Shown in pieces: positions 4,876 to 31,818 of a DNA stretch of 32,899 bases. Positions within the stretch are counted from its first letter, which is position 1. Each line of letters opens with the position of its first letter. Source of the stretch: Deltaproteobacteria bacterium (GTDB lineage: Bacteria; Myxococcota_A; Polyangia; HGW-17); NCBI GenBank assembly GCA_016937155.1, contig JAFGWM010000021.1, positions 1 to 32,899 on the forward strand, in the 5' to 3' direction. The position numbers were made by a program, and so were the translations under genes. The notes beneath the pieces were generated by a model that did no database searches, was not told the DNA's origin, and worked only from the letters and a program-made list of their open reading frames with translations.

Positions 4876-6684
4876 TTGAAAAATATCCGGTGGAGAAAAC
4901 AGTATGTCTCCAGAACGGTTACAGCTGCAGACATTTCACTCATAATAAAGCCTGGTTCACTCGTATTTATTCAATCTGGTGCTGCTGAACCTGGTTTTCT
5001 GATAAATGCTGCAATAGGTGACTCATCCATACCTGGAATATCTCTTCTCCAGGGATGGTCATTTTCAGATTCTGATTCATCTTTGAGTTTTAATTCTGGA
5101 TTTTTCTTTCGTGGCTCAAATGGGAAAAAATCTTTAAATCAGGCTAGTTATAATTATATTCCAGCTCATCTGAGTGAACTTCCAAGCTATTTTCAGAGTA
5201 AAATTATTGATCTCGATGTCGCATTAATTCAGGTTTCGCCTCCGGACGGGCATGGACTGATGAGTCTGGGAGTTGGTGTTGATATTACCAGAGCGGCAGT
5301 TCAGTCTGCAAAAACTGTAATAGCTCAGGTAAATCAGTTCATGCCTCGAACACATGGTGACAGTTTTATTTGTGTGGAGGATGTTGATTATTTCATTAAC
5401 CAGAGTGAAGAACTTATGGAGTTACCTGTACTGCACCCTGGGAAGGAAATAGAGGAGGCTCTTGGGAGTGAAATTTTTGAATTGATTCCATCAGGGGCAA
5501 CCATAAATGTTGGTTATGGTCAGGTTCCAGCGGGAATAGTCAGAAAATGCTACGGGCTCAAAGACATTGGGGTTCATTCAACCCTTGTTACAAACTGGCT
5601 TATGGAATTAATGCTTGAAGGTGCAATTACTAATAACTGTAAGAATATCAACAGGGGAAAAGCTGTTGCCTCAATGGCTGCAGGTACTAGACAATTCTAT
5701 GATTTTCTTGATGATAACCCTAATATTGAAATGCGATGTTCTGATTATGTAAATTCTCCTGAAGTGATATCTTCTCACCGGAATTTTTTCTCAATTCATG
5801 GTGGAGTAAAAATGGATCTCACCGGGCAGTTGACCTGTGAAAGGAATGAACCCGGATATTATGGTGGTGTTGGCGGGATTACAGATACCGCCAGAAATGC
5901 AATCAGGTCTACGGGCGGGGGAAGTGTTGTGGTTATGTTAAGCGTCAATAGCAGCGGCGAGAGTTCAATTGTGCCTCTTACAGGTGATGGAGTAGGCATT
6001 GAACTTAAAAGACAGGATATTGACTGGGTTATCACAGAGTTTGGTATCATTAACATGAGAGGGCGATCAATACGGCAAAGAGCCTTTGACTTGATTTCTA
6101 TAGCCCACCCGGATCATAGGGCGGAGTTACTTAATGCTGCACTGAGCAAAAAGTATGTTGATTTTTCTCCCGGCAGAACACACCTTTCTCATATGAATAT
6201 GAGAACAACGGAGATAAATGGAAGGTCTATGACAATTAAGACATGCTCATCTGCTGATCTCCCGACAATTGAGAGCTTTTATTACAAAATGAGCGAATCC
6301 TCTAAAAATTTCAGATTTTTCAGTGGTGAGTCATCTATCTCAAAACATATTAAAAATCTTGAAGAAACTGATGATATACATACTGTTACACTGTACCCTG
6401 TTGGTGGTCGTCAACTGATCGCTGTTGGAGAACTCAGTGCTTCTTCCAGAGAAGAAATTGGCGATTTTGCTATCGCAGTAGGTGAAAACTATCGAAAGAT
6501 GGGTTATGGAAAGCTTATACTGGAAAAAATAAGGGATCTGTCTCTTGAATTCGGATTAAAAACTATTCGTGCAGAGGTTCTTACCGGGAATTATGCAATG
6601 ATAAGGCTGCTTCGAAGTTATCCACTGAAATGGAATGAGACTGATATGGGCAGTTCATTAATTTTTACTGCAAACATTCAATAA
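4876..6684 (+). CDS. Acetyl-CoA hydrolase/CoA-transferase-like protein fused to GNAT acetyltransferase domain
   Basis: Residues about 1-440 match the 4-hydroxybutyrate CoA-transferase/acetyl-CoA hydrolase family. Visible segments are INVGYGQVPAG, YDFLDDNPNIEMR, MDLTGQL, YYGGVGG, ITEFGI and SIRQRAFDLISIAHPDHR. Residues about 450-602 are a GNAT domain with the acetyl-CoA loop YRKMGYGK. The family's catalytic glutamate sits in a GIH-T/S-E-M motif, but here the motif reads GVHSTL, with Thr at residue 236. The segment usually reading NSALEVDLTGQ reads HGGVKMDLTGQ. The N-terminal part may therefore bind CoA thioesters without transferring CoA. The start is a TTG with a perfect AGGAGG site supplied by the end of ribE. 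A role in protein or small-molecule acetylation controlled by acyl-CoA is inference. CoA-transferase/GNAT fusions are known from annotation. Confidence 0.85.
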   Translation: MKNIRWRKQYVSRTVTAADISLIIKPGSLVFIQSGAAEPGFLINAAIGDSSIPGISLLQGWSFSDSDSSLSFNSGFFFRGSNGKKSLNQASYNYIPAHLSELPSYFQSKIIDLDVALIQVSPPDGHGLMSLGVGVDITRAAVQSAKTVIAQVNQFMPRTHGDSFICVEDVDYFINQSEELMELPVLHPGKEIEEALGSEIFELIPSGATINVGYGQVPAGIVRKCYGLKDIGVHSTLVTNWLMELMLEGAITNNCKNINRGKAVASMAAGTRQFYDFLDDNPNIEMRCSDYVNSPEVISSHRNFFSIHGGVKMDLTGQLTCERNEPGYYGGVGGITDTARNAIRSTGGGSVVVMLSVNSSGESSIVPLTGDGVGIELKRQDIDWVITEFGIINMRGRSIRQRAFDLISIAHPDHRAELLNAALSKKYVDFSPGRTHLSHMNMRTTEINGRSMTIKTCSSADLPTIESFYYKMSESSKNFRFFSGESSISKHIKNLEETDDIHTVTLYPVGGRQLIAVGELSASSREEIGDFAIAVGENYRKMGYGKLILEKIRDLSLEFGLKTIRAEVLTGNYAMIRLLRSYPLKWNETDMGSSLIFTANIQ

Positions 6685-9076: not shown

Positions 9077-10333
9077 ATGTCCACAGAAAATCCTCAGATT
9101 TATGGAAAAGACCCGTTTCCACCTGGAACTGTACTCGAAGAAAAGTTTAGGTTGGAGAAGGTTCTTGGTAGAGGCGCAATGGGGGTGGTTTACCTTGGAT
9201 ACGATGTGTTTCTGGAAAGAAACGTTGCCATCAAGGTTCTGAAGGGTAGAAGTATGGCAAGCCATGAAGCTGTTGAGCGTTTTCGCAGAGAAGCAGTCAC
9301 AATGGCTACTATTAACCATCTTAATATCGTACAGATTTTTTCTTTTGGTGAGAAAGAGGGGTATTACTATTTTGTGATGGAATATATTCCCGGCCAGACA
9401 CTAGCCACTTTTATTGATGACTTTTACCGTGCATCAGATTTTGTGCCTCTTGATGTTGCCATTGGGCTTATAAGTCAGATATGTTCAGGATTAGGAGCTG
9501 TTCACAAAAGAGGGATTGCTCATCGGGATGTAAAGCCTGCAAATGTTCTTATTTCCAGGGATAATTATCATGTTGCTCTCACAGACTTTGGTCTTACAAG
9601 TCTGAGTGAAACAGGAAAAGACAAATTTGTGGAAGGAACACCCCTTTATCTTGCTCCTGAACGGATTAAGAGCGAGGTTATAAAACCCGATGATCTACCT
9701 GCGAGTGACATTTATAGTGTAGGCTGTATATTTTTTGAACTTCTCACCGGAAGACCTCCGTTTGAGTGTGATAATATCGTGGAACTTTTAGGCATGCATA
9801 TTCATGAGCCAATACCCCGTGTTACACTTGAAAGACCTGATATTCCAATATATATCGACGAAATTATCACAAAAGCTATGGCAAAGAAGATTTCTGACAG
9901 GTATTCCAGCTGTGAGGAGTTGAAACAGGAGCTCCTTTCAAAAAGAATGCCACAGGTTTCAAGCCGCTTTGTGAGGCCGTTTGCTGTTTTATTTGATGAT
10001 GGTAATCGTGCAAAGGAGCTTGGGGATTATCTGCGTAGAGAAATTCCCAGACTTAATATTCATGAATATCAGGATCAGAATGAAGCACTTGCTGTCTGTC
10101 AGAAAGAAAAGCCTGACGTGGCACTGATTACTTTTCGTGAGGATGATCAGTTCAGTGCTCTTGAACTGGCCTCCATGCTAAGTAATTCAAGTGTACCCAT
10201 GGTTCTTTATATGCCGGAAAAACAGACTTCCATGCAATTCCTTTATACAGATATGGGTGTAATAAGTGTTCTGTCAAGTGCAGGTGAGTTTCCTGAGGCT
10301 GCCGAATCAATCAGAGAGTTGCTGAAAAGTTAG
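9077..10333 (+). CDS. Soluble Ser/Thr protein kinase fused to receiver-like domain
   Basis: Hanks-type kinase, residues about 24-290. It has the glycine loop GRGAMGVVY (31-39), VAIK lysine Lys53, HRDVKPAN (catalytic Asp151, Asn156), DFG (Asp170) and GTPLYLAPE (187-195). All catalytic residues are present, so activity is expected. Residues about 300-415 look like a response-regulator receiver fold. It begins FAVLFDDGNRAKEL, and the Asp307/Asp308 acidic pair is kept. The phospho-acceptor position in KPDVALITF is Thr352 instead of Asp, and the later conserved Lys is absent. This suggests a receiver that cannot be phosphorylated in the usual way and may serve as a docking domain. No membrane helix is present. 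Its substrate is unknown. Confidence 0.9.
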   Translation: MSTENPQIYGKDPFPPGTVLEEKFRLEKVLGRGAMGVVYLGYDVFLERNVAIKVLKGRSMASHEAVERFRREAVTMATINHLNIVQIFSFGEKEGYYYFVMEYIPGQTLATFIDDFYRASDFVPLDVAIGLISQICSGLGAVHKRGIAHRDVKPANVLISRDNYHVALTDFGLTSLSETGKDKFVEGTPLYLAPERIKSEVIKPDDLPASDIYSVGCIFFELLTGRPPFECDNIVELLGMHIHEPIPRVTLERPDIPIYIDEIITKAMAKKISDRYSSCEELKQELLSKRMPQVSSRFVRPFAVLFDDGNRAKELGDYLRREIPRLNIHEYQDQNEALAVCQKEKPDVALITFREDDQFSALELASMLSNSSVPMVLYMPEKQTSMQFLYTDMGVISVLSSAGEFPEAAESIRELLKS

Positions 10334-16141: not shown

Positions 16142-19100
16142 ATGAGTGACAAGGATCTGGAAAATACCAGTTCAGAAGTGGATATTGAAAAATCAGTTGG
16201 AGAAGAAAGCTCAGAGGAAATACTTCTGGAGGAAGAAATTCTTGAAATCGAAGAAATACAATTCGATGAGGATTTTGAGGAAGAAGTTGAAGAAAAGAGT
16301 AGTGCCGCTCCACCACCTTTACCTCCTCCATTACCAGTCCCTGAAAAGCTGAGTGCTATTGAAGAGTTTGTCATTGCCACCCATGAGAAAGCATATCCAG
16401 TTTGTGATAACTCCGTTATAGAGGAATTTTCCGAGAAAATAAGCAGGGAGTTTGAGGAACGGGATCATGAACACTATCTTACTTATAGCAACAGAATAAA
16501 GGATAATCTAATAAAAGCCATATATCTGAATCAGGCGGGATATCTGTCTGAAAAAACAGGAAATCTTGCTCTGGCTTTGAAATATTATGCTGCTTCTCTT
16601 GATGCGGATAAATCGTTGATTCCTAATCTGAGATCTCTGAGAAGGATACTGAAACTAAGAGGGCTGCGTGATAAGGTCAGCACGATTACTTCAATTCAGA
16701 TAAATGCTTCATCCGAAGTCGAAGAAAAAGCAGTTCTTGAATATCTTATAGGAGTTGAAAAGGATGCTGTTGATAATCCTGAAGCTGCTCAGCATTTTGT
16801 GAATTCTCTTGAATTAAATCCAGCTTATATTCCGTCAATAATTGCGCTAAACCGCATGAGTGTTATCACCGGAGACGCAAATAATTCATCAATTATCATG
16901 GAGAATCTTGCTTCTTTGACAGGAGATGCTGAACTTCAGGCTTCTCTTATTATGTATGCTGCAAATAAATATGAAGTTTCCGGTAACTATGCAGCAGCAA
17001 GAGATTTGTTTAAAAAGTCACTGTTATTTTCATCGGGGCATCATCAGGAAATCTGGTATCGTCTCACAAAAAACATACTGGAAAACGGTACGTTTGAAGA
17101 TTATATTAATGTTTTAAAACAAAGGCTTGAGTGGCATAGAGATAATGGTGAAGAAGTTCCTGCTCAGTCAATGTCGCTTTTTATTTCGTGGCTGATTGAA
17201 AGAAATTCAGGAGCATCAGATGCTTTTGAGTTTCTGAGAGATTATGCAGGGGAAGAGCAGCACGAATGTATTTTAAACAGGTTGTATGATCTGGCATGGG
17301 CAAATGGCAACTGGGATTTTCTTGCAAATACTGCTGACTCTTCTGTTGATGGCTATATAAGACTTCTGGCAAAGGCAAACATTGGACTGGCGGATGATGA
17401 TGAGTATGAAGGTGATGATGATGAGTCCCGAATCATCAGATATTTTCTAGAGGATTTCTTAATTGACGATACCGAAGCTCTTGAGGAGATTCTTCCCATT
17501 CTTTCAGATAATAATCTCAGATCTTTTATTCGACTTATTATTGACCTTAAGAAATTAAAAACCGGAAGAATGGTTCAATTTGAAAAAGACAGCCAATGTT
17601 CGGAGTTGCCTGAATATTCTGAACTGCATTATTTTTCATCTGTTCTTGAGGGCAATGATAAACTCGCTATCGATATTCTCAGGAATTCTCCGGAACTGAC
17701 AGACTCATCTCTTTTTTACTCCTTGGAATTATTCAGGCTTATTGTACAGAGCATGAGCACTGATGAAAACAAAGAGCTTTTACAGAGAAGTATTGAGCGA
17801 ATCATTTCAGAAGAAGGTAATAATCCAGTAATGTTACTTCTTTCTTCAGTTTTTTCTGATAATGCGGATTTAAAAGACTCAGCACTGGAAAAAGCAGCTT
17901 CCATTGTTTCTACCAGTGAGTCTCTGGTTCTGAGACTCCACAGACTCAGAAAACTTCTGTCAGTTAAAAAGGATCCTCAACTTCTATCCTCGATCATACC
18001 TGAGTTTTTCAGTGATCCTGTGTTGAATGAACTTGCAGGGAAATTATGTCTTCTTAACAAATGGAATGAACAGTATATTGATTATTTGAACTCTGCTTCT
18101 GATATGGGGAGTGAATCTGCATCCATAGAACTTGCCTTGAGAGAGTATCTGAAAGGCGAAAAGGAACCTGAAAAAAGAATTGAAAATCTAACTTCAATGG
18201 AAGCCTCCTGGTGGAAACTGATTTTTTCAATGTCAAGTGGTGATGCTCTCCATGTGATGGAAAATGCTGGAATATTTTCCTCTTACATGGAGCTTCAGCA
18301 GGATGTGTTGTATTCCAGAGCCTCTCTTTCCATAGATAATTCATCTGTTTCTGAAAAAGTTGATTTGCTTCACAAGGCGATTGATGCCAATCATGACTCG
18401 TCTTTAGTATATCAGATGCTTCTTGAGAGTTGTTTTAACGCTGGAATTTCATTATCTGTTTCACCTCCGGAAACATCACCGGTATGGGTTAAACTCTGGT
18501 ATGGAACTTATCGGCTTTTCACTGACAATGATTCTTCCGGGGAGGAAATTCTTAAGTCGATAGCATTTTCAAATGATTTATATTCTGATATTGCTGCTTT
18601 AATTCTGAGGTTTGTTCTTCTCCGTGATTCACGTGATACTGAGAGTTATGAGCTTATAAAATTTACCGATATTGATCGGTCTGTTTTTTCTTCATTCATT
18701 ACCACACTTATAGCAGGTCAGATCCCCCTTGAAATTCCGGGAAAACTTTTTGATGCAGTGTTGAATCCAATGTCTGCATTATCATCTGATGTACTGGAGA
18801 TCTTACCTGATTCCGAGGGTGTGGATGAATTCAGTTCATGGATGTCGTTGACAAAAGAACTTAAGGGTAAACCTCAAAAAGCGATTGAAATAAGAAATTT
18901 CAATGGTGAAAACCGCCTGGGTATGCTTTTAAGCATAAGAAGAATGCTTTCAATATCAGATGAGTATTCACTTGATCTCTATCTTGAACTTGCGGACTGT
19001 TTTCCCATGGGGACGCAGCAACGAAAGAGTTCTTTACTTGAAATTGCTGAGCATAGCCAGGACAGTGCAAATCTTGTTGCTGCATATTTCAGGCTTTACA

Positions 19101-22100
19101 ATGAATTCCCGGGGAATGAAGAGTTCATAAAAAATGCATTTTCAATAGCAATGGAAACAGTTGATGATAACTCAAAAGCTGTTATTTACAGTATGGCAAA
19201 ATATGCTGATATTCCGGAAAATGATTACTCCAGGCTAGAGGAAATTTTTACTGAGAATCAACTGAGTGATGAGCATAACTGGCCTGAACTCCTCAGAAGT
19301 GATTATAAATTCGGGACAGGAAAACTTCCTGAGTTCGATTTGAAGAATACTGAGTTGACTCCTGGATATGATGATTTGATTGCGAGTGATGCAAAACTGC
19401 TTACTGAATTACATTATGAATTCAATAATCAGGTATGGCTCAAAGAAGCAGCCAGACTTTATATGGCTCTGGATGATTTCAGCACTGCAGGCTCTCTTTT
19501 TGATGAGACTGAGATTTCATCTGAAATCAATTCTTTACTTAGAATATCCTGTGCATTTAGAGGTTTTGATTTTAATAAAGTCATAGAAATTTCAAGAAAT
19601 TTGATTGAAAAATCCGGGTTTATCAGAACTCTTGCAGGTGAACTCTCCTTCATTTTAAATGAAGATTTAGACTGGGTTGATGAAAGTGATTATTCTCTGA
19701 AGCTTGATATTTTCTCAAGAAACGGAGATCTGGAAATGTTTTCCAGTCTTATGGAAAAACTTGAATATCCTGCCGGACATTATGCATGTGCACTAATGAA
19801 CTTCATTGAAAATACTGATGCCTATAGCTCTTTTCTTGAAATGGTAAAAAATTCAGAATACTCACAGGGAATCCGTTTCCATAAAATGGTAAGTTTCCCA
19901 ACTCCTGAAAATAAACTTCTTTATCATGAGGTTTATCCTGATGAATACAGTACTTTAAGGATTATTGAAGACGGTAACATTCCAAGTGAACTTCCTGGGA
20001 ATCCTCTGGTTTTGTGGTTTGCACTGGACAGTGGTCTGGTTACTTTTCAGGCAATTCATGAACACATCAGTGATAGTGTTCTTAAAAATAGACTCAATGT
20101 TAAACAGATACTTTTTAATATCGAAGAGCAGTTTGAACAGATTACAGACCGGGAATCGGATTTCATCGAAAAAAGTATTTTCCATAACCTGAGGACAGAA
20201 AATGTTCCTCTCGAAGACCTGACTGATTATTTCCGTATTTACACTGCTTCGTGTAAAAATGAGTTCGTCAGGGAATGGTTCAGTGATCCTTCTGAATATA
20301 CATACTCAAATTCTTTGGTTCAGGCAGTTGATATGCTGAGGGTTATTGAGTCTGGTGGGAGCGTTGTTCTTGATGAAGATTTCGTTCAGGAAATGTCTGC
20401 TATTGGAACATATATTCTGGATTTTATGCAATTAACAGAAAAAACAAAAGAAGTCTCTACATATACTTCCAACTGGATAAAACTTTCTGCTTTTGCTAAA
20501 CAGGAGGATAAATATGATTTAAAACACTCCCTTGATGAAGAGATAAACTCAGGCAGGTATATCAGGGAACTTTCCTATTTTCGTTCAATGTTGAATATGG
20601 AAATTGATTCCGGTTATCCATCTGTTTTGTCCAGTATGCTTGGTGAAAATGAAAATTTCTCAACTTCCTGGGAGGGCATTACTGATTTACTTTCGCAAGG
20701 CATGTCTGAACTTGCAGCAACAAGGTGTATGGTGGGAAGTGAGTTGAAAAGTGAAGAACTTGAAAGCTCAATGGTGGAGTTTCTCCCGCAGAATGTGCGA
20801 TTCAAATATCTTAAGCGATATTACAGGAAAAAATCTGACTATGATGAGTTTTACAGACTTTTCCAGCAGTCAGATGAAGAGTACAAACTTTCCGATTTGC
20901 TTACGGCTTCTATGACATCTGAGACTGTATATAAAAACCTGAAGGATTCTACTGATCCATTTTTGCAGTTTCTGTATGAGCAATTCGCCTGGGAATTTGG
21001 CCACTTTGCTGATATAACGGGACGACTTTTATCAGAAATAGAATCATCAGAAAGTACACCTGAAAATCAGGCAAAAGCATACAGAGAGCTTTCATGGATC
21101 GACGAATATGAGAAAGGTGATGTTGAAAGTTCACTTATGACTCGTTGGGCTCTCCTTAGCTCAGGTGTAAGAGACAGCTATAATCTGATGCTTCTGATAG
21201 ATGATAAAAGAACCACTGGTGATGTGGATGCCGAAATTGCTCTTTTGGATAAATTAATAGAGTTGTTATGGGTATTCATTGATAAAATTGGTTACATTGC
21301 AGAAAAAATCAGACTTGAAGAAAGGGTTGGATTACCACTACCGCAGGTTTCTTTTTTTGAAAATATCAGGGAGCAGATCGAGTTGAATGGCGAACTGCTT
21401 TGGTGGTGGCAACTTAAAGCAGGTACTGATTTCCCGGTTAATCTTGAATTCCAATGGTATAGAGATGAACCTGTGAGCAGAATGGTTTATGGATTCAGAC
21501 TCGCCAAACAGTTTAAAGACTCCGGAGTGCTTGAAGATGCCTATGAAATATCGGTGGATCTTCTTAATTCATCACCACTGGAGTCTGAGCCAGTTCTGAT
21601 GCTGACACTGGGAATAAGTCTTCAGATGAAAAAGTGGGAAGCAATTCCTGTAATAATAACAAGACTTATAAATCTGGGACTGTATGAAGAGATTGTTCAG
21701 TCTGAGCTCTGGTTTATGGCTGGACTGGTTACTGAGATTTGGGGAGAAGATTATGAAAATGCTGTTAACTGCTATGAAAATGCGATAAATCTTGATCCAG
21801 GGAAACAGGAAATATTTGGACATATATGCAGATGCTGTGAAAAAACAGGTGATTTTAAGGTTCTTGCAGCGGCGATAGAGCGGCAGATTGATTATACTCC
21901 GAATCAGGAAATAGCTGCGAGACTGTTATATGATTTGATTTCAGTCTATAGAGATAAACTGGATAAACTTCCTTTTGCAGTAATGGCTGTTAAAAGATAT
22001 CTGGAAATAAATCCTGGAGACTTAAATGTTCTCAATGATTTATGTGAGCTTTACAGAAGCCAGAACAATATTTCTGAGGAAATTAAAGTATTAAATCAAC

Positions 22101-23458
22101 TTGTAACCGTTGAAAAGTCTTCGGACGAACTTTCCAGGCTTCACAGGAGACTTGGTGAACTGCAGGAAACAGAAAACACCAATCTGGCTATTTCTTATTA
22201 TATGAAATCACTGGAATATTCTCAGAAAAACTCCGTTTTCAAAAAACTTTATGAACTATATTCCGAGATTGGTGATTTCAGAAATGCAGTTCGTTCCATA
22301 AAGAGATATATTTCTCTGATTAATGATAAACAGGAAAAAATTTCACTGACTATCGAAGCTGCATTGATTTTTGAAAAACGCCTTAAGGATCTGAGAAATG
22401 CAGCTGCAATGTTTGCCTCTGCAGTTGATTATGATTCTGAAAATATGGATGCAGTTAAGGCCCTGGTTGAACACTACAATAGAAATAATGACACCATGAG
22501 CAGAAATGTAAAACTGGATATGCTCTGGGTAAATGAACGTCAGAAAGTGCATGGTATTAAATCCAGAGATGCAATTAAGCGCATAAGCACTTTGTTCGCA
22601 TATAAAAAAGATAAGGAGAATGCTTCAATTTTAGCTGAAGCAGCATTAAGCTGTGGTGTCAGGGAAGATGAACTGGCCGTTAAACCACAAAAGGTGGCAC
22701 TTGATTTTGAAAGTCTCCAGCGGATTAGAATTCTGTATACTCACCCTATACATGATTCTCACCTTCAGTTATTTTCTTTTATTTCATCTGAGGCACCGAA
22801 ATATTACAAGGATTTCATTAAAAAGAATTCAAACCTCAGTGGAAGCAGGCTGAAAAATCCTCCTTCAGGACTAAAAAATGCGACAAACGATGGGTTTTTT
22901 AATGAAATTCAGACTGGGAAAGTAGTCAAGCCAATTGTTCTGCCATATGAAAATCCCGTACTGCTGATACCTGAAAGTATGGCAGATGAATCAGTCACTG
23001 AGGATATCTGGAACTTTTTCATAAATCCCCTTAAGGTATTTCATGCTAAAGGGCTGTCTCTGCCGTATTGCCTTGATGAAGAATCTTTAACTGCCCTTAT
23101 GGCATCCATGGTAAAATTTACATTTCCTGAAAAAGATGTTGGGGAAGTTAATGAAAATCTCTTAATGGAGATTTCCAGGTCAACATCAAAGCTTTTTTCC
23201 AGAATGGACCGGTCTACTTATGCCAGTTACATAATTGAAGCCGGTACATTCAATCACGTTACAGCTTCAGGAATTCTGGTTTCTCTCGAGAGGGCTGCAA
23301 ACTGCCTGGGATATTTAAGTTGTGGAAGTCTGGGTGTTGCAATTGAATCTCTTAAACTACTTTCCGGTAATAATACTGATGAGTTGATAAAGTTCCTGGT
23401 GACTTCACAGCATTTTTCTGCCAGAGCCCAGGGGAAAGAAACATCAAGTTCCTTCTGA
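16142..23458 (+). CDS. Giant TPR-repeat protein (2438 residues)
   Basis: A soluble helical solenoid with no signal peptide or membrane helix. Residues 1-55 are strongly acidic, and 56-70 form a proline-rich linker (APPPLPPPLPVPE). Most of the rest is divergent helical-hairpin repeats. Clear TPRs appear near 140-165 (ALKYYAASLDAD) and about 1860-2120 (ENAVNCYENAINLDPG, FAVMAVKRYLEINPGDLNVL, AISYYMKSLEYS, AAMFASAVDYD). The last 270 residues form a distinct domain ending in a segment (ASGILVSLERAANCLGYLSC) that resembles the ends of large myxobacterial TPR proteins. AGAGG precedes the ATG. It is the first gene of a tight five-gene run with a pseudokinase and a kinase, so a scaffold role is likely. 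No enzymatic motif was found. Confidence 0.88.
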   Translation: MSDKDLENTSSEVDIEKSVGEESSEEILLEEEILEIEEIQFDEDFEEEVEEKSSAAPPPLPPPLPVPEKLSAIEEFVIATHEKAYPVCDNSVIEEFSEKISREFEERDHEHYLTYSNRIKDNLIKAIYLNQAGYLSEKTGNLALALKYYAASLDADKSLIPNLRSLRRILKLRGLRDKVSTITSIQINASSEVEEKAVLEYLIGVEKDAVDNPEAAQHFVNSLELNPAYIPSIIALNRMSVITGDANNSSIIMENLASLTGDAELQASLIMYAANKYEVSGNYAAARDLFKKSLLFSSGHHQEIWYRLTKNILENGTFEDYINVLKQRLEWHRDNGEEVPAQSMSLFISWLIERNSGASDAFEFLRDYAGEEQHECILNRLYDLAWANGNWDFLANTADSSVDGYIRLLAKANIGLADDDEYEGDDDESRIIRYFLEDFLIDDTEALEEILPILSDNNLRSFIRLIIDLKKLKTGRMVQFEKDSQCSELPEYSELHYFSSVLEGNDKLAIDILRNSPELTDSSLFYSLELFRLIVQSMSTDENKELLQRSIERIISEEGNNPVMLLLSSVFSDNADLKDSALEKAASIVSTSESLVLRLHRLRKLLSVKKDPQLLSSIIPEFFSDPVLNELAGKLCLLNKWNEQYIDYLNSASDMGSESASIELALREYLKGEKEPEKRIENLTSMEASWWKLIFSMSSGDALHVMENAGIFSSYMELQQDVLYSRASLSIDNSSVSEKVDLLHKAIDANHDSSLVYQMLLESCFNAGISLSVSPPETSPVWVKLWYGTYRLFTDNDSSGEEILKSIAFSNDLYSDIAALILRFVLLRDSRDTESYELIKFTDIDRSVFSSFITTLIAGQIPLEIPGKLFDAVLNPMSALSSDVLEILPDSEGVDEFSSWMSLTKELKGKPQKAIEIRNFNGENRLGMLLSIRRMLSISDEYSLDLYLELADCFPMGTQQRKSSLLEIAEHSQDSANLVAAYFRLYNEFPGNEEFIKNAFSIAMETVDDNSKAVIYSMAKYADIPENDYSRLEEIFTENQLSDEHNWPELLRSDYKFGTGKLPEFDLKNTELTPGYDDLIASDAKLLTELHYEFNNQVWLKEAARLYMALDDFSTAGSLFDETEISSEINSLLRISCAFRGFDFNKVIEISRNLIEKSGFIRTLAGELSFILNEDLDWVDESDYSLKLDIFSRNGDLEMFSSLMEKLEYPAGHYACALMNFIENTDAYSSFLEMVKNSEYSQGIRFHKMVSFPTPENKLLYHEVYPDEYSTLRIIEDGNIPSELPGNPLVLWFALDSGLVTFQAIHEHISDSVLKNRLNVKQILFNIEEQFEQITDRESDFIEKSIFHNLRTENVPLEDLTDYFRIYTASCKNEFVREWFSDPSEYTYSNSLVQAVDMLRVIESGGSVVLDEDFVQEMSAIGTYILDFMQLTEKTKEVSTYTSNWIKLSAFAKQEDKYDLKHSLDEEINSGRYIRELSYFRSMLNMEIDSGYPSVLSSMLGENENFSTSWEGITDLLSQGMSELAATRCMVGSELKSEELESSMVEFLPQNVRFKYLKRYYRKKSDYDEFYRLFQQSDEEYKLSDLLTASMTSETVYKNLKDSTDPFLQFLYEQFAWEFGHFADITGRLLSEIESSESTPENQAKAYRELSWIDEYEKGDVESSLMTRWALLSSGVRDSYNLMLLIDDKRTTGDVDAEIALLDKLIELLWVFIDKIGYIAEKIRLEERVGLPLPQVSFFENIREQIELNGELLWWWQLKAGTDFPVNLEFQWYRDEPVSRMVYGFRLAKQFKDSGVLEDAYEISVDLLNSSPLESEPVLMLTLGISLQMKKWEAIPVIITRLINLGLYEEIVQSELWFMAGLVTEIWGEDYENAVNCYENAINLDPGKQEIFGHICRCCEKTGDFKVLAAAIERQIDYTPNQEIAARLLYDLISVYRDKLDKLPFAVMAVKRYLEINPGDLNVLNDLCELYRSQNNISEEIKVLNQLVTVEKSSDELSRLHRRLGELQETENTNLAISYYMKSLEYSQKNSVFKKLYELYSEIGDFRNAVRSIKRYISLINDKQEKISLTIEAALIFEKRLKDLRNAAAMFASAVDYDSENMDAVKALVEHYNRNNDTMSRNVKLDMLWVNERQKVHGIKSRDAIKRISTLFAYKKDKENASILAEAALSCGVREDELAVKPQKVALDFESLQRIRILYTHPIHDSHLQLFSFISSEAPKYYKDFIKKNSNLSGSRLKNPPSGLKNATNDGFFNEIQTGKVVKPIVLPYENPVLLIPESMADESVTEDIWNFFINPLKVFHAKGLSLPYCLDEESLTALMASMVKFTFPEKDVGEVNENLLMEISRSTSKLFSRMDRSTYASYIIEAGTFNHVTASGILVSLERAANCLGYLSCGSLGVAIESLKLLSGNNTDELIKFLVTSQHFSARAQGKETSSSF

Positions 23459-23471
23459 AAAGAGTTTTAGT

Positions 23472-23891
23472 ATGAGTGATATTAAGAAGAAGATTAGATT
23501 TTATGGAATTCTCGATCTGATATTTTCTGTTTTATATCTGATTGTTTTTGTAATACTGCTTCCTGCTCATGATCCTTTCGCAAGATTTATGACTGTTTTT
23601 TTCCCTGTTCTATTGGGAATATCAGGGATTATGATGGTTCTTGGATTGAAATTCTCCAGAGAGATTGGGATGGGTATCGCTTCAATGTTTATTGCCGTCT
23701 GTTTGCTCTCCATTTCTCTTCTGGCTTATACAATTGGTTATTTCAAGGGGATTTATGGTCCTTTGGGACAGGGAATCACTATCGTCAGTTATCTTGCAAT
23801 AGCTCTTGTTATTGAGATGTTTGGAATCTGGCCATTCTTTCAGTTAAAAGCCCTATGGAAATTATCGTCATCTGAAAAGGCTGGAAAATGA
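23472..23891 (+). CDS. Small four-helix membrane protein
   Basis: This 139-residue protein has four hydrophobic segments, near residues 11-30, 38-58, 65-88 and 100-122. It has a basic N-terminus (SDIKKKIR) and a basic end. No family is recognised. It starts 13 bp after the giant TPR stop and overlaps the next gene by four bases (ATGA), so it is translationally coupled. It may anchor the TPR protein or a neighbouring kinase at the inner membrane, which is inference from context. Confidence 0.78.
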   Translation: MSDIKKKIRFYGILDLIFSVLYLIVFVILLPAHDPFARFMTVFFPVLLGISGIMMVLGLKFSREIGMGIASMFIAVCLLSISLLAYTIGYFKGIYGPLGQGITIVSYLAIALVIEMFGIWPFFQLKALWKLSSSEKAGK

Positions 23892-25759
23892 CCTGGAAAA
23901 GATATTCCTTATTCATGTCAGGTGGTTTTATACTTTTACCGCTGTTATCTTTTTTAGTCGGTTATCTCAGTAGTGTTCACACCGGAAAGAGTGAACCGTC
24001 AATAAAAGTAAAGGAAGAACTGGTTAGAATATTCCATGAGGCAACAAATGGAAAGTCAATTGAACTATCTACATTCAGTGAATACTCTGATAATTATCCG
24101 GGGCCTCTTTTTGTTAATATAATTCACAGAGGGAAATTCCTGTTTCACTGTGAAGAGGCTGCTTCTCCCCTTGCGGATGCTGTAAGAAAATGTCGTGATA
24201 AAATAATTAAAATGTCACCCTATCCCTCGGAATCCCGAATAAGAATTGATTTGGCATTGTCTTTTGTGAGAATACCCCATGTCCCCCAAATAAGGTCTCT
24301 TCTGATATTACCAGGTGTTGAGGCAATAAAAGGAAATGCAAATGGTCTTTCAAGATATATTCTTCCTGATGAGATGTATTTCGATGATTTCCTTGCCGGG
24401 TCCACACCTTTAAGCTTTGTTAAGGAATTGAAAATAGGTGTTAATATTGAAAAACTGGAAAAAGAGCTAAGTCTAAGACTTGGGAGATGGCCTGACAGCA
24501 TATACAGAGTGAAACTGATGAGCCTTGTGAACGGTTATACTGAGCCTGATAAAATGCGTGAGGTATTCAGAAGTGGTTTAAAGAAACGAAAAAAAGTTAC
24601 TTCAGATTCGGTGTATAAGGCAGCACTTGCCGGTGGAGATTATATGCTGAGATCCCTTGTTAAAAATCCCCGCCGGAAGATTCCATGTACAGGCAAACTG
24701 TGCAGAGGAAAATTCTTCAGGACAACTAAAGGCCAGTTTGTATATAACTACTGGATAACAAAGGGAGCTGCGGATTTTCAGAATAAGTACATCTACAATC
24801 TGCCAAGGCATGCCGGAACCACTTATGCGCTGGCCAATCTGTTCAGAATTACTGGTCTAAAACGTTTTGGTGATGGCGCATCCATAGCAATCTCCTATCT
24901 GAGAGAGCTTGCGGACGGAAACTGCAGGGGACCCGGGTTCCGTTGTGTCTCCAGTGGAGGGTGGGCTTCTCTGGGGTCAAGTGCTCTTGCTCTGGTTGCG
25001 GTGACAGAATATTTTCTGGCTACAGGAGATTCTACCTACAATGAATTTGGGCAGTCTCTGGCCGGCTTTTTGCTTTATATGCAGCGTCCAGATGGTTCAT
25101 TTATGCATCACTATAATGTTCGAAAAATGAAACCTGACAAGGACAGGGTTGATTTGTATTACAGTGGAGAGGCTTCTCTGGCTCTCGCCAAATCATGGAA
25201 GGCATGGAAGAAACCGGAATATCTGAAAGCAGCTGAAAAGGGGGTGGACTGGCTCACAACTGAACAGGTAAAGCCACTTCCATTCAGGTTTGCTTTTGGT
25301 GAAGAGCACTGGACATGTCAGGCCGCTCGGGAACTTTATCCCGACGTTAATAAGAAAAGGTATATCAGGTTTTGTACTGATTTCGCAAATTATATAGAGC
25401 GTCAGCAGTGGAAACCGGATGAAACAGAATTTCCTGACTATATTGGGACCTACGGTTTTACACCTGTGGTTCCTGCTCACAGCAACGGCGCCGGTTCAAG
25501 AACTGAAGCCAATGTATCAACATTTGAATTAATTAAATTTAATGAACAGAGTACAAAAAAAATTGAAAATCAGATACGTCTGGCTTTGTCTCATATTATT
25601 AATAATCAGAGAAACCCTGAAAACTGTTGGCTCTGCAAGGATCCGGAATATTCAAGTGGGGCTGTTACGACCAGTCCTGTTCAACTTGATGTAAGGATAG
25701 ATACTGTTCAGCATACCACTACCGGACTTATCAGAGCCTGGGCGTCTTTATACAAATGA
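23888..25759 (+). CDS. Membrane-anchored periplasmic protein: AMMECR1-like segment plus helical toroid
   Basis: A single N-terminal helix (about residues 8-28) anchors a 595-residue exported part. Residues about 70-190 weakly resemble AMMECR1: FLFHCEEAASPLADAVRKC sits where the family has LRGCIG...PLxEAV, and a later PGVEAIKGNANGLSRYILPDE resembles the family's glycine strand. Residues about 250-623 contain repeated helical hairpins with YALANLFRITG, ALALVAVTEYFLATGD and YYSGEASLALAKSW. This fits an alpha/alpha toroid of the six-hairpin glycosidase/epimerase type, but I cannot identify catalytic residues. Paired Cys (CTGKLC, CRGPGFRC, CWLC) suggest disulfides and a periplasmic location. The gene overlaps both neighbours by ATGA. 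Function is unknown. Confidence 0.75.
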   Translation: MTWKRYSLFMSGGFILLPLLSFLVGYLSSVHTGKSEPSIKVKEELVRIFHEATNGKSIELSTFSEYSDNYPGPLFVNIIHRGKFLFHCEEAASPLADAVRKCRDKIIKMSPYPSESRIRIDLALSFVRIPHVPQIRSLLILPGVEAIKGNANGLSRYILPDEMYFDDFLAGSTPLSFVKELKIGVNIEKLEKELSLRLGRWPDSIYRVKLMSLVNGYTEPDKMREVFRSGLKKRKKVTSDSVYKAALAGGDYMLRSLVKNPRRKIPCTGKLCRGKFFRTTKGQFVYNYWITKGAADFQNKYIYNLPRHAGTTYALANLFRITGLKRFGDGASIAISYLRELADGNCRGPGFRCVSSGGWASLGSSALALVAVTEYFLATGDSTYNEFGQSLAGFLLYMQRPDGSFMHHYNVRKMKPDKDRVDLYYSGEASLALAKSWKAWKKPEYLKAAEKGVDWLTTEQVKPLPFRFAFGEEHWTCQAARELYPDVNKKRYIRFCTDFANYIERQQWKPDETEFPDYIGTYGFTPVVPAHSNGAGSRTEANVSTFELIKFNEQSTKKIENQIRLALSHIINNQRNPENCWLCKDPEYSSGAVTTSPVQLDVRIDTVQHTTTGLIRAWASLYK

Positions 25760-27141
25760 AATACTGTAAAAAATGCAACAGTTCATTTTCAAGTGATTTG
25801 ACTTTTTGTCCCTTTGACGGGACGTTTATGTCTGTACCTGAAAAAAGAACCGTTGCAATGTATGATCCTCTGGCTGGTATCATTCTTGATGGACGATATC
25901 AGATTATGGTACCATGTGGGGATGATATATTTTCTATTCATTACAGCGCTAAACATATCTCATTAAGTAAACGCTATACCATAAAATTTCTTCGTTCGTT
26001 TTTGTGCTCCTCAGAAAATTACAGAAGCATGTATCTTGATCTTTCTAGGATGAGAGCTTCACTGGAACATCCAGGAATTGAAAAAACTGTAGATTATGGA
26101 ATTCATTTGGAACAGCCATATATGGTTTGCGAATATACTGAAGGTGACAGTCTGGATGTCTATATAAAAAAAAACGGGGTTAACTCTGATATCTCAAAAA
26201 TAATGAATAAACTGTCAGAAGCACTTTCATATGTTCACTCAAAGGGACATCTGCTGCAGAATATTATCCATTCAAATGTTCGAATAAAAATAAATCCCGA
26301 TGGGGATATGAAGGTTGTTTTAATCAATCCGGGAATTCTGCAGACAACGAGAAAGAAAATCCTTGAAGGAAGTTATTTTGGGCTGATTGAATATCTGCCG
26401 GAAGAAACACTGAAAATGGGGATTTACGACTGCCGAAGTGAATATTATCAACTTGGGCTGATTCTCCGAAAAATGCTCGTTTCTGATGAAATGGAAAAAC
26501 CTGAGTCAATGGACAGTATTATCAATGGTGGCTTTTATCGGAAACTCACAGAACTGGAAAACAAGGAGAGCAAAACACGGTTTATCAGGTATACTGAATT
26601 GTATTATTTTTTAACAGCGCCTCATAAGGATAGAATAGGTACCCATGAGGAATTTAAAAAAGTAATGAATAATTCTTCCGGTGGAATTCAAAGGAAATTA
26701 CTTTTAGTTTCATCGGTAATTTTTGTACTTTTTTTTCTCGCAGCAGTATCAGCTGTTTTTAACTCAGTTTCTTCACGGGATGAAAAAAAATCAGTCCCGG
26801 AACAGGCTTCCAGAACTACAGTAAAAATAATTCCACTTGAGAAAAATATTTCCAGAACCGGTTTTTATACAGTTCAGATTGAGACAGAACCGGTAGGTGC
26901 AAGGATTTTATCAAATGGCAGACAGTATATTTCTCCAGCTGATATTGAAATTCCTTCAGGTACAGAACTGAAAATCAAAATTGACAGGGATGGGTATGAA
27001 TCCAGAGAGCTTTCACTGCATCCAAAGGGTAATGAGAAGGTTGTTATCAGCCTCAGGTCTGCTAAGAGAGAGAAGACCGTGGGGAGAAACAGAAAAAAAG
27101 AAAAATCGGAACTTATGGATCCCTTTAAGGATAGAAAATGA
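25756..27141 (+). CDS. Zinc-ribbon Ser/Thr pseudokinase with transmembrane helix and PEGA domain
   Basis: Residues 4-21 form a zinc ribbon with CKKC and a later C-P-F-D-G, but only three of the four usual Cys are present. Residues about 45-290 have the kinase fold in outline. The ATP lysine (Lys77 in YTIKFLR) is kept, but the glycine loop is lost (VPCGDDIF). HRD is replaced by HSN (172-174) and DFG by NPG (191-193), so catalysis is not expected. A membrane helix lies at about 314-336. A periplasmic PEGA domain (about 370-434) has VQIETEPVGARILSNG. The tail is very basic. The gene overlaps the gene before it and the active kinase after it by ATGA, which suggests that this protein is an allosteric or scaffold partner of that kinase. 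Confidence 0.85.
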   Translation: MKYCKKCNSSFSSDLTFCPFDGTFMSVPEKRTVAMYDPLAGIILDGRYQIMVPCGDDIFSIHYSAKHISLSKRYTIKFLRSFLCSSENYRSMYLDLSRMRASLEHPGIEKTVDYGIHLEQPYMVCEYTEGDSLDVYIKKNGVNSDISKIMNKLSEALSYVHSKGHLLQNIIHSNVRIKINPDGDMKVVLINPGILQTTRKKILEGSYFGLIEYLPEETLKMGIYDCRSEYYQLGLILRKMLVSDEMEKPESMDSIINGGFYRKLTELENKESKTRFIRYTELYYFLTAPHKDRIGTHEEFKKVMNNSSGGIQRKLLLVSSVIFVLFFLAAVSAVFNSVSSRDEKKSVPEQASRTTVKIIPLEKNISRTGFYTVQIETEPVGARILSNGRQYISPADIEIPSGTELKIKIDRDGYESRELSLHPKGNEKVVISLRSAKREKTVGRNRKKEKSELMDPFKDRK

Positions 27142-28727
27142 CGGACAAAAATAAATTGGACGAACTCAGTAGAATTCCCAGCAGGGAGGATTTCGCGGTA
27201 GCCTTTGATGAACGATTCAAGGAAAATACCGATTTGAAAAAAACAAAAGTTGGTGTTATTGCTCCCGGATCAGTTGTAGATCCCTTTATGAACCGGGTTA
27301 TTGACGGAAAATACAAGGTTGAAAGACTGCTTGGTGGTGGGGGGATGGGGAATGTTTATCTGGCAAAGCACATGGTGATTGAAAAAAAGGTTGCAATAAA
27401 AGTACTGCACCCGGAGCTGGCTAAAAAAGCATCTGTCGGTAAAAGATTTCTGCAGGAGGCTAAAGCAGCTTCTTCAATCGAACATGAAAATATTGTTCAG
27501 ATTATGGACTATGGAAAGACAGAAGATGGTTTTACATATATGGTGATGGAATATCTTCAGGGGATGGAGCTGGGAAATTACATTCAAAAACACGGGGCTC
27601 TGGACTGGAAAACTGCTCGTGACATTATAATTCAGGTTGCCAAAGCCCTTGGTGCTGCTCATGCCAGGAATATTATTCACAGGGATATTAAACCTTCCAA
27701 TATTTTCCTTATTGATTTTGCGGGGAAAAGCAATTTTGTAAAGATTATTGATTTTGGTATAGCCAAGGTTGGCCAGGAAAATGATGGGGAAAAAATGACA
27801 AAAACGGGCACTATAATGGGAACACCTGATTATATGAGCCCTGAACAGGCAGGTGGAAAGGATTTAACTTCTGCAAGTGATATATATTCAACAGGTATAA
27901 TACTTTTTGAGCTTTTGGCCGGAAAAGTTCCCTTTGAAGCTGATTCTTTCATGGCAGTTTTATCCATGCATCTGTTTGATGCTCCCCCGAAAGTCTCTGA
28001 AATTAACACAAGTGCATCAATTCCTTCTGTGATGGATAGTATAATTCTAAAATCACTGGAAAAAAAGGCTGAGGATCGTTTCAACACAATGGATGAACTG
28101 ATCGATGCACTCAATTCTATTTCAGATGATGGTATTGCCAGAAAGATTACTGTTAAAAGTCATATGAGGCGCAGCAGGCGAAAGTTGCTGATTCTTCTTT
28201 CTTCTTTAGCTGCTCTTGGTGCAGCAGCAGTTATGGGTTTATGGATAGTGAAGAATATCGGGGCTTCACCTGAAGAGAGTTCTCTCAGAGGTCTTGGGGT
28301 AAGCGTTCCGGATATGGAGATTGATGTTTCAGAAATGAAAATTGAATCCCCCAGGGAATCTGATGTTATGGTTACAGTCACGGCGAATGAAAAAGATGCA
28401 TCTATTGTTGTTGAATCCGGTGTTGTTTCTGTAAAAACAGGTAAGACATATACACGATTTGGGAAGGGTGCTGTTTTAGGGACTACACCACTGAAAGGGC
28501 TGACTGTAAAATCATCAAATGATAAAATAAAATTAAAAATCACAAAGGCTGGCTTTGATACTTCAGTGTTTGATGTGAAACTTGATTCCAGTCTGACCAT
28601 TGAAAAAATCCTTAAGAAAACGCATAAACGAACAGTTACAGTTCCTATGATGAAGCCGATTCCTATGAAAGTTTTCCCTATGGTTCATAATAATGGTGAA
28701 CTCCTAACTCCCATGTTTGAAGACTGA
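27138..28727 (+). CDS. Membrane Ser/Thr protein kinase with PEGA-like periplasmic tail
   Basis: PknB-type kinase domain at about residues 58-330. It has the glycine loop GGGGMGNVY (66-74), Lys88 in VAIKVL, HRDIKPSN (Asp183, Asn188), DFG (Asp205) and GTPDYMSPEQ (228-237). All key residues are present. About 50 residues precede the domain. A basic stretch and one membrane helix (about 350-371) follow. The periplasmic part contains a PEGA-like beta domain (about 413-497) and a Met/Pro-rich end, PMMKPIPMKVFPM. The kinase end thus resembles the Met-rich tail of the first gene in the window. It is the fifth gene of the run that starts with the giant TPR protein. Substrates are probably encoded nearby, which is inference. 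Confidence 0.93.
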   Translation: MTDKNKLDELSRIPSREDFAVAFDERFKENTDLKKTKVGVIAPGSVVDPFMNRVIDGKYKVERLLGGGGMGNVYLAKHMVIEKKVAIKVLHPELAKKASVGKRFLQEAKAASSIEHENIVQIMDYGKTEDGFTYMVMEYLQGMELGNYIQKHGALDWKTARDIIIQVAKALGAAHARNIIHRDIKPSNIFLIDFAGKSNFVKIIDFGIAKVGQENDGEKMTKTGTIMGTPDYMSPEQAGGKDLTSASDIYSTGIILFELLAGKVPFEADSFMAVLSMHLFDAPPKVSEINTSASIPSVMDSIILKSLEKKAEDRFNTMDELIDALNSISDDGIARKITVKSHMRRSRRKLLILLSSLAALGAAAVMGLWIVKNIGASPEESSLRGLGVSVPDMEIDVSEMKIESPRESDVMVTVTANEKDASIVVESGVVSVKTGKTYTRFGKGAVLGTTPLKGLTVKSSNDKIKLKITKAGFDTSVFDVKLDSSLTIEKILKKTHKRTVTVPMMKPIPMKVFPMVHNNGELLTPMFED

Positions 28728-28788: not shown

Positions 28789-31700
28789 ATGGACAGCCAG
28801 CAATTCAGAGTTTTTCATGATTCAGAAGATTTTCAACTACTGGAAACTATAAATCTTATACTTGATAACGGTAAAACACCTAAAAGGCTGAAAAAACTTT
28901 TTGATACCGGATTTCATCCAAGAGGGATCAAGGAACTGGCTGCGCCACAATCTCTCAGGATTGCTGTGGCAATGATGGAACTTCTTGGTACATTAAAGAA
29001 AGGTACTCCGGAAGAACGGTTGCACGCTCTGAGAGCTGTACGAACCGAGACACTCCATGAAAGTTCACAGTCTCTTCGAAACAACGTCGCAAGGGTTTTA
29101 ATGCGTATTATGAAGAGAATTGTGAGGTCTAGGGGAAATCTCCCCAGACAGTTATCCCTTATTCATGATTTTCGGGAGGCTGCCACAGGCAAACCCAGAC
29201 TGGTAAGAAAATATTTAAAAAAATACCACCTTTTTGAAATGCCGGAAGAGTGGAATCAACTTGCTTTTGATCATCATGTTCATGATGCCAATTCCAAGGG
29301 CAGGAAATCTCCAACCCATATGGTGATGGACGCATGGATAAAAGGAATTCGATTTTTGGGAGTGATTTATTACAATTTCATAAGGCCTGAGGTTGCTTCT
29401 GAACTTCTGGAGGCCGCAGAGATAATGGGAATTGAGGTCAGGCTGGGCGTTGAGCTGGCTGCAAAAATGCATAACAGATACGTTCAACTTGTATGGTCTC
29501 CTATGGGTTTTTTTGACAGAAGAGATTTTGTTGACTTTCTGAATGAACCTGAAGTAGCTGAATTTATGAAGCTGGGTGTTGAAGTAAGGGAGTTTAAGAC
29601 TGTTCAGGTTCTTCATATACTGGAAAACTATAATAAGACACATAGGCATGTACTTTCTGAAGAGTATGAGATTAAGACCGATGATCTGACTTCTGAACAG
29701 TTTATGAATTTTGTTGGAAGGGGGCAGCCATCTCTTGTTCATTTAGCTGAATTTGTTCATAAATCAATTTTTAGTTCCATCAGGGATACCGCTTCACGAT
29801 TATTCAGTTCTCTTCAGGACGGAAATGCGGATCCTGACATAATCAGGGGAAAAATTGATAAACTGGATAGGCTTATCCCCGAGAAGCTGGTGGAGCTTTA
29901 TTTTAGACCGGAGATAAATCCAGGCTGTGTCAACTGTTCTGTTCCAGTGGATACACCTGAAATTCCGACTCTTATGAATTTCACAGTGGAAGGTCTTTTG
30001 GACATTCTCGATTCACTTCCATGCCGTTCAAGAATTACTCTGAATCCTTCAAACCTGACTCAGGCTGATGTGATTGAAGCCCTCTACCGTGGTCATGGCA
30101 GAATTACGCATATTGAAATTTATAATTCAAAGGACTGGGCTCATCATCTCACAGAGCATCGTGAAGCTATTAATAATATACGGATAGTAATTAATAATCA
30201 GAACGTTATTGAACTAAAGAGAATAGTTCGGGAGAGGAAAGATGCTGCGGCCATAAGGGATTCACATGAAGGTACGGATCAGGAGTCTGTTTTGGAAGAA
30301 ATTCTTGGAAATCTCAGTAGTTTATTGGGATATTATCAGCATCAGAGGCTTCGTTCCAGAATGGGGAGTGATTCAATCGGCCGATCAAGAACAACTCCTG
30401 GAATGGGAATGGTTGTGCTCCCGACTATTCCATGGAGAGGCCGCAGAGAAATCCTGAAAGAGCGTGAAAGACTTCTGCCGATAAGTACTACACCTGTAAA
30501 ACACACAAGTGTTGTTGTGGGAAACAGGGATGCTCTAAGACGCTATGATATCAGTATGCAGGCGGAGATGAAAAATTCTCTTTCCAGAATAAAACATCGC
30601 ATAACCAGCTGGAGTTTCGGTTCGAATACCACAACATTAAGCAGAGATGGAAACATTGCAGCAATTGGTGGTTTGGCAGGGCAGGGTATAAATGGTCTTA
30701 AGAATATGGAAAAAAAGAAGGATAGTAGGACTGATTATCCTAAACCCCTCAACTCTACTTTGAAAAACTTTCTGAAAATATTTGTGGGTTTTATCCCTGC
30801 ATTTATCACTTTTTATTTTACAAAAAGCTGGTGGGTTCTGGCATGGTTTGGTGCACTTATATGGTTCGGAATCACAGGCTTTAGGAATATTATTCAAAGT
30901 GTTCTGGGAGGAGGAGGTCTGTTCAGGACTTCATTGCTGGAATGGAAGGATTTTGTGAACTGGAGCAGAGTAAGTGATTCTCTCCTTTTTACCGGCTTCA
31001 GTGTGCCTTTACTGGATTTTCTTGTGAAGGATCTTCTCTTGAATAGATCTTTCGGGATAACACCTTCGTCAGATTCGTTGACTCTGTACACTGTTATGGC
31101 ACTGGCAAATGGGATATATATCTCAAGTCATAATATGTTCAGGGGGCTTCCTATTGGGGCAGTTGTAGGTAATTTTTTCAGAACTGTACTTTCAATTCCT
31201 GTGGCTATTTTCCTTAATTTCTCAATTATATTAATATTAAAGGGCTCAGGAGCCTCCGGGGAGGTTATTTCTACACAGATGTTTCTGTGGGCAGCTGTTA
31301 TTTCAAAGTTTGCTTCTGATATCGTTGCAGCAATTATTGAAGGAAGTGCTGACAGGAAAACAAATGTCAGTATAAGACTTAGTGATTACAGGGAGAAACT
31401 GCAGCATATATACAAAGCCTACAGCAGACTTGAAGTTGTGTTTCCAAGCCGTAATGTGAATAAACTTATGACTGATCCTGAAAAACTTTCTGAAATTTTA
31501 ATGAAAAAAGATCCTGTGTTATTAAAGAATATGGTTATTAATTCACTTGATTTACTGTATTTCTGGATGTACCAGCCAAGAGCTGAATATGCATTCCGGA
31601 AAAAATTGAAAAATATGAATGAAAATGAGCTTGTGTCCCTTATTGGATTTCTGAATATTTTAAGATGCAAAAAAATGATCAGTTCCATGATTCTTGATGG

Positions 31701-31818
31701 GTTAACCGGAAAAAAATTTGAAAAACCGCTGGCATTTTTTCTTTCAAGAAGTGATGAATTTTTGTCTGATGCTGAAACAATTATTAAATCAAATATTTAT
31801 ATCAAAAATAAAAGTTAA
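28789..31818 (+). CDS. Large membrane protein with degenerate PHP-like domain
   Basis: This protein has 1009 residues. An N-terminal helical region (1-150) precedes a PHP-phosphoesterase-like segment. H-x-H metal ligands lie in FDHHVHDANSKGRKSP (His163, His165), and Glu222 lies in GIEVRLGVE. The second metal motif (usually a TDHD-type sequence after the first strand) reads IYYNFIRP, so the site is incomplete. The middle (about 400-650) is charged, with a Ser/Arg-rich low-complexity stretch. Residues about 660-840 contain several hydrophobic helices (GFIPAFITFYF, WWVLAWFGALIWFG) and a loop FRGLPIGAVVGNFFRTVLS. The C-terminal part is soluble and helical. A GGGAGG site precedes the ATG. A membrane-linked metal-dependent hydrolase or signalling protein is possible. 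No function is assigned. Confidence 0.75.
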   Translation: MDSQQFRVFHDSEDFQLLETINLILDNGKTPKRLKKLFDTGFHPRGIKELAAPQSLRIAVAMMELLGTLKKGTPEERLHALRAVRTETLHESSQSLRNNVARVLMRIMKRIVRSRGNLPRQLSLIHDFREAATGKPRLVRKYLKKYHLFEMPEEWNQLAFDHHVHDANSKGRKSPTHMVMDAWIKGIRFLGVIYYNFIRPEVASELLEAAEIMGIEVRLGVELAAKMHNRYVQLVWSPMGFFDRRDFVDFLNEPEVAEFMKLGVEVREFKTVQVLHILENYNKTHRHVLSEEYEIKTDDLTSEQFMNFVGRGQPSLVHLAEFVHKSIFSSIRDTASRLFSSLQDGNADPDIIRGKIDKLDRLIPEKLVELYFRPEINPGCVNCSVPVDTPEIPTLMNFTVEGLLDILDSLPCRSRITLNPSNLTQADVIEALYRGHGRITHIEIYNSKDWAHHLTEHREAINNIRIVINNQNVIELKRIVRERKDAAAIRDSHEGTDQESVLEEILGNLSSLLGYYQHQRLRSRMGSDSIGRSRTTPGMGMVVLPTIPWRGRREILKERERLLPISTTPVKHTSVVVGNRDALRRYDISMQAEMKNSLSRIKHRITSWSFGSNTTTLSRDGNIAAIGGLAGQGINGLKNMEKKKDSRTDYPKPLNSTLKNFLKIFVGFIPAFITFYFTKSWWVLAWFGALIWFGITGFRNIIQSVLGGGGLFRTSLLEWKDFVNWSRVSDSLLFTGFSVPLLDFLVKDLLLNRSFGITPSSDSLTLYTVMALANGIYISSHNMFRGLPIGAVVGNFFRTVLSIPVAIFLNFSIILILKGSGASGEVISTQMFLWAAVISKFASDIVAAIIEGSADRKTNVSIRLSDYREKLQHIYKAYSRLEVVFPSRNVNKLMTDPEKLSEILMKKDPVLLKNMVINSLDLLYFWMYQPRAEYAFRKKLKNMNENELVSLIGFLNILRCKKMISSMILDGLTGKKFEKPLAFFLSRSDEFLSDAETIIKSNIYIKNKS

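Follow-up and report, generated by a model that had tools for sequence, protein, structure and literature searches.

The stretch of DNA analyzed here (the window) spans an entire contig (32,899 bases), and the genome to which it belongs measures 4.1 Mb. Between positions 16142 and 28727 it carries five open reading frames on the same strand (Table 1), which we refer to as TPR, TM4, TOR, PSK and KIN. A preliminary description had these genes lying without gaps. The junction sequences confirm ATGA overlaps at TM4-TOR, TOR-PSK and PSK-KIN but reveal a gap of 13 bases between TPR and TM4. Hydrophobic segments number four in TM4, in agreement with its description as a four-helix membrane protein, and one each in TOR (N-terminal), PSK (residues 316-334) and KIN (350-368). 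As far as can be judged from single transmembrane segments, the sequences fit the proposed topology, with the kinase inside and the PEGA-like domain and the toroid outside.

Table 1 Features of the five-gene run in the window (TM, transmembrane segment)
Feature	Position	Strand	Description
TPR gene	16142..23458	+	2438-aa giant repeat protein; N-terminus acidic and proline-rich, without TM
TPR protein, C-terminal domain	22721..23455	+	about 245-250 aa; from alignment and predicted fold
TM4 gene	23472..23891	+	139-aa four-helix membrane protein
TOR gene	23888..25759	+	623 aa; membrane-anchored (hydrophobic anchor, residues 7-25), probably periplasmic
TOR, AMMECR1-like N-terminal domain	24002..24577	+	about residues 39-230; without LRGCIG motif
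TOR, (alpha/alpha)6 barrel	24593..25756	+	residues 236-623
PSK gene	25756..27141	+	461 aa; zinc-ribbon-like N-terminus, pseudokinase domain, TM, PEGA-like domain
PSK C-terminal tail KSELMDPFKDRK	27103..27138	+	
KIN gene	27138..28727	+	529 aa; kinase with intact VAIK/HRD/DFG, TM, extracytoplasmic PEGA-like region
KIN C-terminal tail GELLTPMFED	28695..28724	+	

Two flanking genes were considered as further members and rejected. The PQQ propeller gene (14868) adjoins the run in the window and in genomes G006 and G007, but in G001, G002 and G005 the two are on different contigs, and the gene is therefore not core. The gene for a 1009-aa downstream protein (28789) occurs only in genera g1 and g3 and in two more distant genomes, away from the cluster. 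This protein (28789-31818) is a membrane protein without a Pfam family but with a possible PHP-like motif (FDHHVHD), found at 54-70% identity in only four other genomes, one distant family included. Elsewhere in the window lie a second Ser/Thr kinase (9077-10333), whose C-terminal stretch resembles a receiver domain by eye, an acetyl-CoA hydrolase/transferase fused to a GNAT acetyltransferase domain (4876-6684) and a 702-aa cysteine-rich protein with DUF7107 and an Ig-like domain (6791-8899). An Rfam search found no RNA, and PHROGs returned no match for TM4, TOR or the 1009-aa protein.

KIN retains all catalytic motifs (GGGGMG, VAIK, HRDIKPSN and DFG; Pkinase E = 3e-54) and, together with its one transmembrane segment, is predicted to be an active, membrane-bound Hanks-type Ser/Thr kinase, as the preliminary description had suggested. 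The best-scoring NCBIfam model for KIN was PknB_PASTA_kin (NF033483); at 342 bits the score falls under the curated cut-off of 450, so that KIN is not a member of this PknB/Stk1 PASTA kinase model. The PEGA domains previously proposed for the run were recovered unevenly: the profile search detected none in KIN and a marginal one in PSK (E = 0.003; 17.9 bits against a cut-off of 20.8), although the orthologous kinase at locus L054 matches PEGA at E = 1.7e-8.

At the corresponding motif columns PSK reads GDDIFS, YTIK, LQNIIHSN and NPG (Pkinase E = 8e-12), which places it among the pseudokinases, and the catalytic aspartate is missing in all five carriers. Its earlier designation as a zinc-ribbon pseudokinase thus stands with regard to catalysis, while the ribbon-like start consists of three cysteines and an aspartate. 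In other families, the upstream kinase position is occupied by an intact zinc-ribbon kinase (HRD, DFG). Within the window's own family the motifs form a graded series, from HQN/DLG with an intact G-loop (genus g4) through IQN/DVG with the G-loop lost (G001) to LQN/NPG in the window. Such stepwise loss would also suit a functionless gene on its way to deletion, as would the faster divergence of PSK (37% identity to G001, compared with 52% for KIN) and the lack of the gene in one family member (G002, locus L040). We consider this improbable: the frame is open in all carriers, the zinc ribbon and the C-terminal tail are conserved, and dN/dS is well under 1. For the three g4 species (the window's own copy is too diverged for this comparison), PSK values range from 0.11 to 0.28 and those of KIN, TOR and TM4 from 0.04 to 0.15, so that PSK is under purifying selection even if its ratio is about twice that of KIN and TOR. 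Given this selection in g4, PSK is likely to be functional without catalysis, judging from its sequence evolution.

The origin of PSK was assessed in several ways. BLAST and HMM scores do not separate a zinc-ribbon kinase from a copy of KIN as its source, and when the kinase domain was used to place this family's pseudokinases within the clade of zinc-ribbon kinases, an AU test rejected the grouping (p = 0.0013), with very long branches. The common zinc ribbon and an AMYDPLxGxxxDGRY-like linker speak for descent from a zinc-ribbon kinase, so that PSK may derive from either source. The graded loss of catalytic motifs within one family offers a natural series for the transition from an active kinase to a regulatory pseudokinase.

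The TPR protein had been described as a 2438-residue TPR solenoid. Its size and TPR matches are confirmed, but the significant Pfam signal lies mainly at residues ~1850-2120, apart from a single weak match at 121-157, and the last ~250 residues form a separate, non-TPR domain. The middle region is probably a divergent repeat. The C-terminal domain is shared by all TPR proteins encoded at these loci, and its model (pLDDT 91.6) weakly resembles M48/M56 zinc peptidases (Z 4-6, best Z 6.2). The HExxH zinc site is absent from all 18 aligned sequences, and we rejected an active peptidase on this ground. Giant TPR genes of this family often occur as tandem pairs (L174, L177, L181, L184, L186, L189 and L190).

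In the TOR model (pLDDT 92.6), the anchor at the N-terminus is followed by a divergent AMMECR1-like domain and then by an (alpha/alpha)6 barrel. A single hhalign comparison of the N-terminal domain with AMMECR1 gave a probability of 95.7% (E = 1e-8), whereas seven control pairs stayed below 1%. Pfam found no AMMECR1 match in this domain, and the LRGCIG motif, which most genuine AMMECR1 proteins in the relatives carry, is absent from TOR. In its predicted fold the barrel belongs with the AGE superfamily and is closest to cellobiose 2-epimerase (9l8i; Z 31.9, rmsd 3.0 Å, 333 aligned residues, 11% identity). By alignment, R307, H308, W475, R603, D605, Q608 and H609 are invariant, and H308, H407, H474 and H609 are the conserved histidines. 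We found no description of this domain pairing in the envelope in the open-licence literature.

These features raise the possibility that TM4/TOR is first of all an epimerase, isomerase or glycosidase acting on envelope carbohydrate, with the kinases as its dedicated regulators. The invariant R/H/W/D/Q residues resemble a catalytic pocket, and a triple-histidine center has been described for the cellobiose 2-epimerase class (PMC5726027). The structural match, however, comes at low identity, and GH76, GH105, glucuronyl-hydrolase and terpene-cyclase barrels follow closely; by sequence, a GH9-type entry scores best (E = 2e-4), ahead of cellobiose 2-epimerases (E = 0.008-0.03). No carbohydrate biosynthesis genes adjoin the run, and the TPR-kinase part persists in a genome without a TOR match (G029). 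We regard a unit primarily for sugar or glycan modification as unlikely.

The preliminary description had asked whether the gene order is conserved in distant species or the genes are scattered in related genomes. We ran this check on 59 relatives, recorded as Myxococcota or Deltaproteobacteria MAGs, in a class that includes Kofleriaceae-labeled genomes. TOR was found in 43 of them, and the order recurred in the same genus, in other genera of the family and in distant families of the class; the observation was not refuted. The complete order TPR-TM4-TOR-PSK-KIN is present in G001, G004, G006 and G007 (TM4 not called in the last); within the window's family it occurs in genera g1 and g4, while g2 (G002) has TPR-TM4-TOR-KIN. 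Sister genera retain the overlap between TM4 and TOR, and in other lineages TM4 is fused to the TOR N-terminus. Distant families show an extended order, TPR-IGL-MPR-TM4-TOR-(zinc-ribbon kinase)-kinase, in which IGL is an Ig-like lipoprotein and MPR an HExxH lipoprotein, and many Kofleriaceae-type MAGs have TPR-IGL-MPR-(TM4)-TOR-KIN(-KIN).

A kinase adjoins TOR in 16 of the 49 loci with more than 5 kb upstream, and 14 of these 16 also have a TPR gene upstream. Conversely, 19 TOR loci bear a TPR gene: 14 have an adjoining kinase, two end at a contig edge (L122 and L151), and at L096 the kinase stands one ORF away. In a kinase tree, the locus kinases form one clade (support 97/98) apart from other kinases, with the window's KIN in its non-zinc-ribbon subclade (placed more loosely in a second tree) and the pseudokinases outside on very long branches. 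Because the order recurs across genera and families, the run is not a chance row of genes but probably one envelope-signaling unit without a name; the earlier statement that no named system with this five-gene set was known agrees with our search of the open-licence literature, which found none.

Several observations count against the unit reading. In g3, the incomplete genome G005 has TPR-TM4, but its TOR gene is split and not followed by a kinase, and in genus g23 (G028 and G036) different contigs carry TPR-IGL-MPR and TOR-kinase. Relatives of the TPR C-terminal domain occur in all 57 related genomes examined, usually in several copies each, although in the window's family and in G021, G044, G045 and G053 the copy adjoining TOR scores higher than any other in its genome. 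In addition, kinases neighbor many things, since the window's genome has 60 Pkinase matches.

What the loci demonstrate is a modular conserved cluster; the single complex that had been suggested goes beyond them. TPR and kinase genes occur without TM4/TOR at four loci: L174 reads TPR-TPR-IGL-MPR-zinc-ribbon kinase-kinase in a genome without a TOR match, and L184, L185 and L186 have TPR followed by a kinase. One family thus retains TPR with both kinases, and another TPR with one kinase. In the second tree, where deeper support is lower, the kinases of these four loci fall inside subclades of the locus clade. Other TPR orthologues, among them L175, L178, L180 and L182, have no such adjoining kinase. 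TM4/TOR, in turn, is found without TPR or kinases: unfused beside purD- or nadB-like genes and, at six loci, fused beside an nqrA-like gene and other nqr-like genes (nqrA and nqrB Pfam-confirmed in L138). These six (L086, L087, L100, L136, L138 and L141) belong to another Myxococcota lineage and have TOR, fused to TM4 where recognized, directly upstream of Na+-NQR genes. A protein of ~3050 aa is encoded just upstream of this TOR in L138 (97-9258) and L136 (3-9146); we rejected it as a TPR protein because the L138 copy is built of pentapeptide repeats, dozens in number, and has an FGE-sulfatase domain toward its end. As TM4/TOR stands alone, the MPR homologue of the window's family sits elsewhere with other genes, and g23 splits the TPR-MPR and TOR-kinase parts, the gene content divides the cluster into three or more modules, namely TPR plus kinases, IGL plus MPR, and TM4 plus TOR. 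The five genes are accordingly not an indivisible complex, all the more so as PSK can be missing or replaced by an active kinase. The earlier signaling-unit interpretation thus retains its conservation and its topology and loses its indivisibility.

The same separations would suit mere co-regulated neighbors, that is, operon-mates needed simultaneously in the envelope that form no complex and whose kinases do not act on TM4/TOR. The nqr-linked TM4/TOR, the TPR-kinase loci without TOR and the MPR homologue located elsewhere in the window's family all fit such an arrangement. It accounts less well for the same kinase clade staying with the TPR gene across families f1, f7, f13, f15, f16 and others, or for the retained TM4/TOR overlap, and we judge it possible but rather doubtful.

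A C-terminal motif also characterizes the locus kinases. [DNTS]P[FMY] occurs within the last 30 residues of 26 of the 42 complete locus kinases and of 1 of the 53 other kinases of the window's genome; because the kinases are relatives of one another and the motif was picked after being seen, these counts are a description and not a probability. Kofleriaceae-type single kinases mostly lack the motif. It is kept in L174, whose genome has no TOR match, so TOR is not the sole possible partner of this DPF-type tail, and we rejected it as such.

Taken together, we see about an even chance that the window carries a copy of a modular envelope-signaling cluster of Myxococcota that acts as a signaling complex. 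In such a complex KIN would be the active transmembrane Ser/Thr kinase, and PSK, in the upstream position of the kinase pair, its catalytically dead partner with an allosteric or scaffold role. The giant TPR protein would gather kinases and substrates in the cytoplasm, while on the periplasmic side the kinases could dock on an envelope partner through their PEGA-like domains and DPF-type tails. TM4 and TOR may form an inner-membrane pair exposing the epimerase-like barrel to the periplasm, as an add-on with a state sensed by or controlled through the kinases. More tentatively, the whole may represent a new trans-envelope complex, in which paired transmembrane kinases, one of them dead in this family, sit on a giant TPR scaffold, dock on an envelope partner by a shared C-terminal DPF-type peptide, and read or control a membrane-anchored protein with AMMECR1-like and epimerase folds. 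A Myxococcaceae survey (PMC7694542) puts the number of Ser/Thr kinases per myxobacterium at around 100. Few of these kinases have known partners, and neighbors conserved over several families name candidates.

Parts of the cluster resemble known systems. Like the AGE superfamily (N-acylglucosamine/cellobiose 2-epimerase), TOR has an (alpha/alpha)6 barrel with conserved histidines and arginine; it differs in its 11% identity, its membrane anchor and probable periplasmic location, its AMMECR1-like domain and its paired cysteines. With the AMMECR1 domain (PF01871) it shares a collinear profile match over the whole domain, yet the domain in TOR, without Pfam match or LRGCIG, is fused to a barrel and membrane-anchored. 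KIN has the architecture of membrane Hanks-type Ser/Thr kinases such as the PknB/Stk1 PASTA kinases and Myxococcus Pkn6/Pkn8, with an N-terminal cytoplasmic kinase, one transmembrane segment and an extracytoplasmic C-terminal domain. Unlike these, it has a PEGA-like region and a DPF-type tail in place of PASTA, adjoins a zinc-ribbon partner (pseudo)kinase and lies downstream of a giant TPR gene. In TPR multikinase-associated proteins (Mkap), a TPR protein serves as a meeting place for kinases. In Myxococcus kinase cascades, of which Pkn8-Pkn14 is one (PMC6213207), several Ser/Thr kinases are proposed to cooperate. Compared by description rather than by sequence, the cluster presented here differs from the cascades and Mkap in its giant TPR protein, its own gene cluster and its envelope TM4/TOR module.
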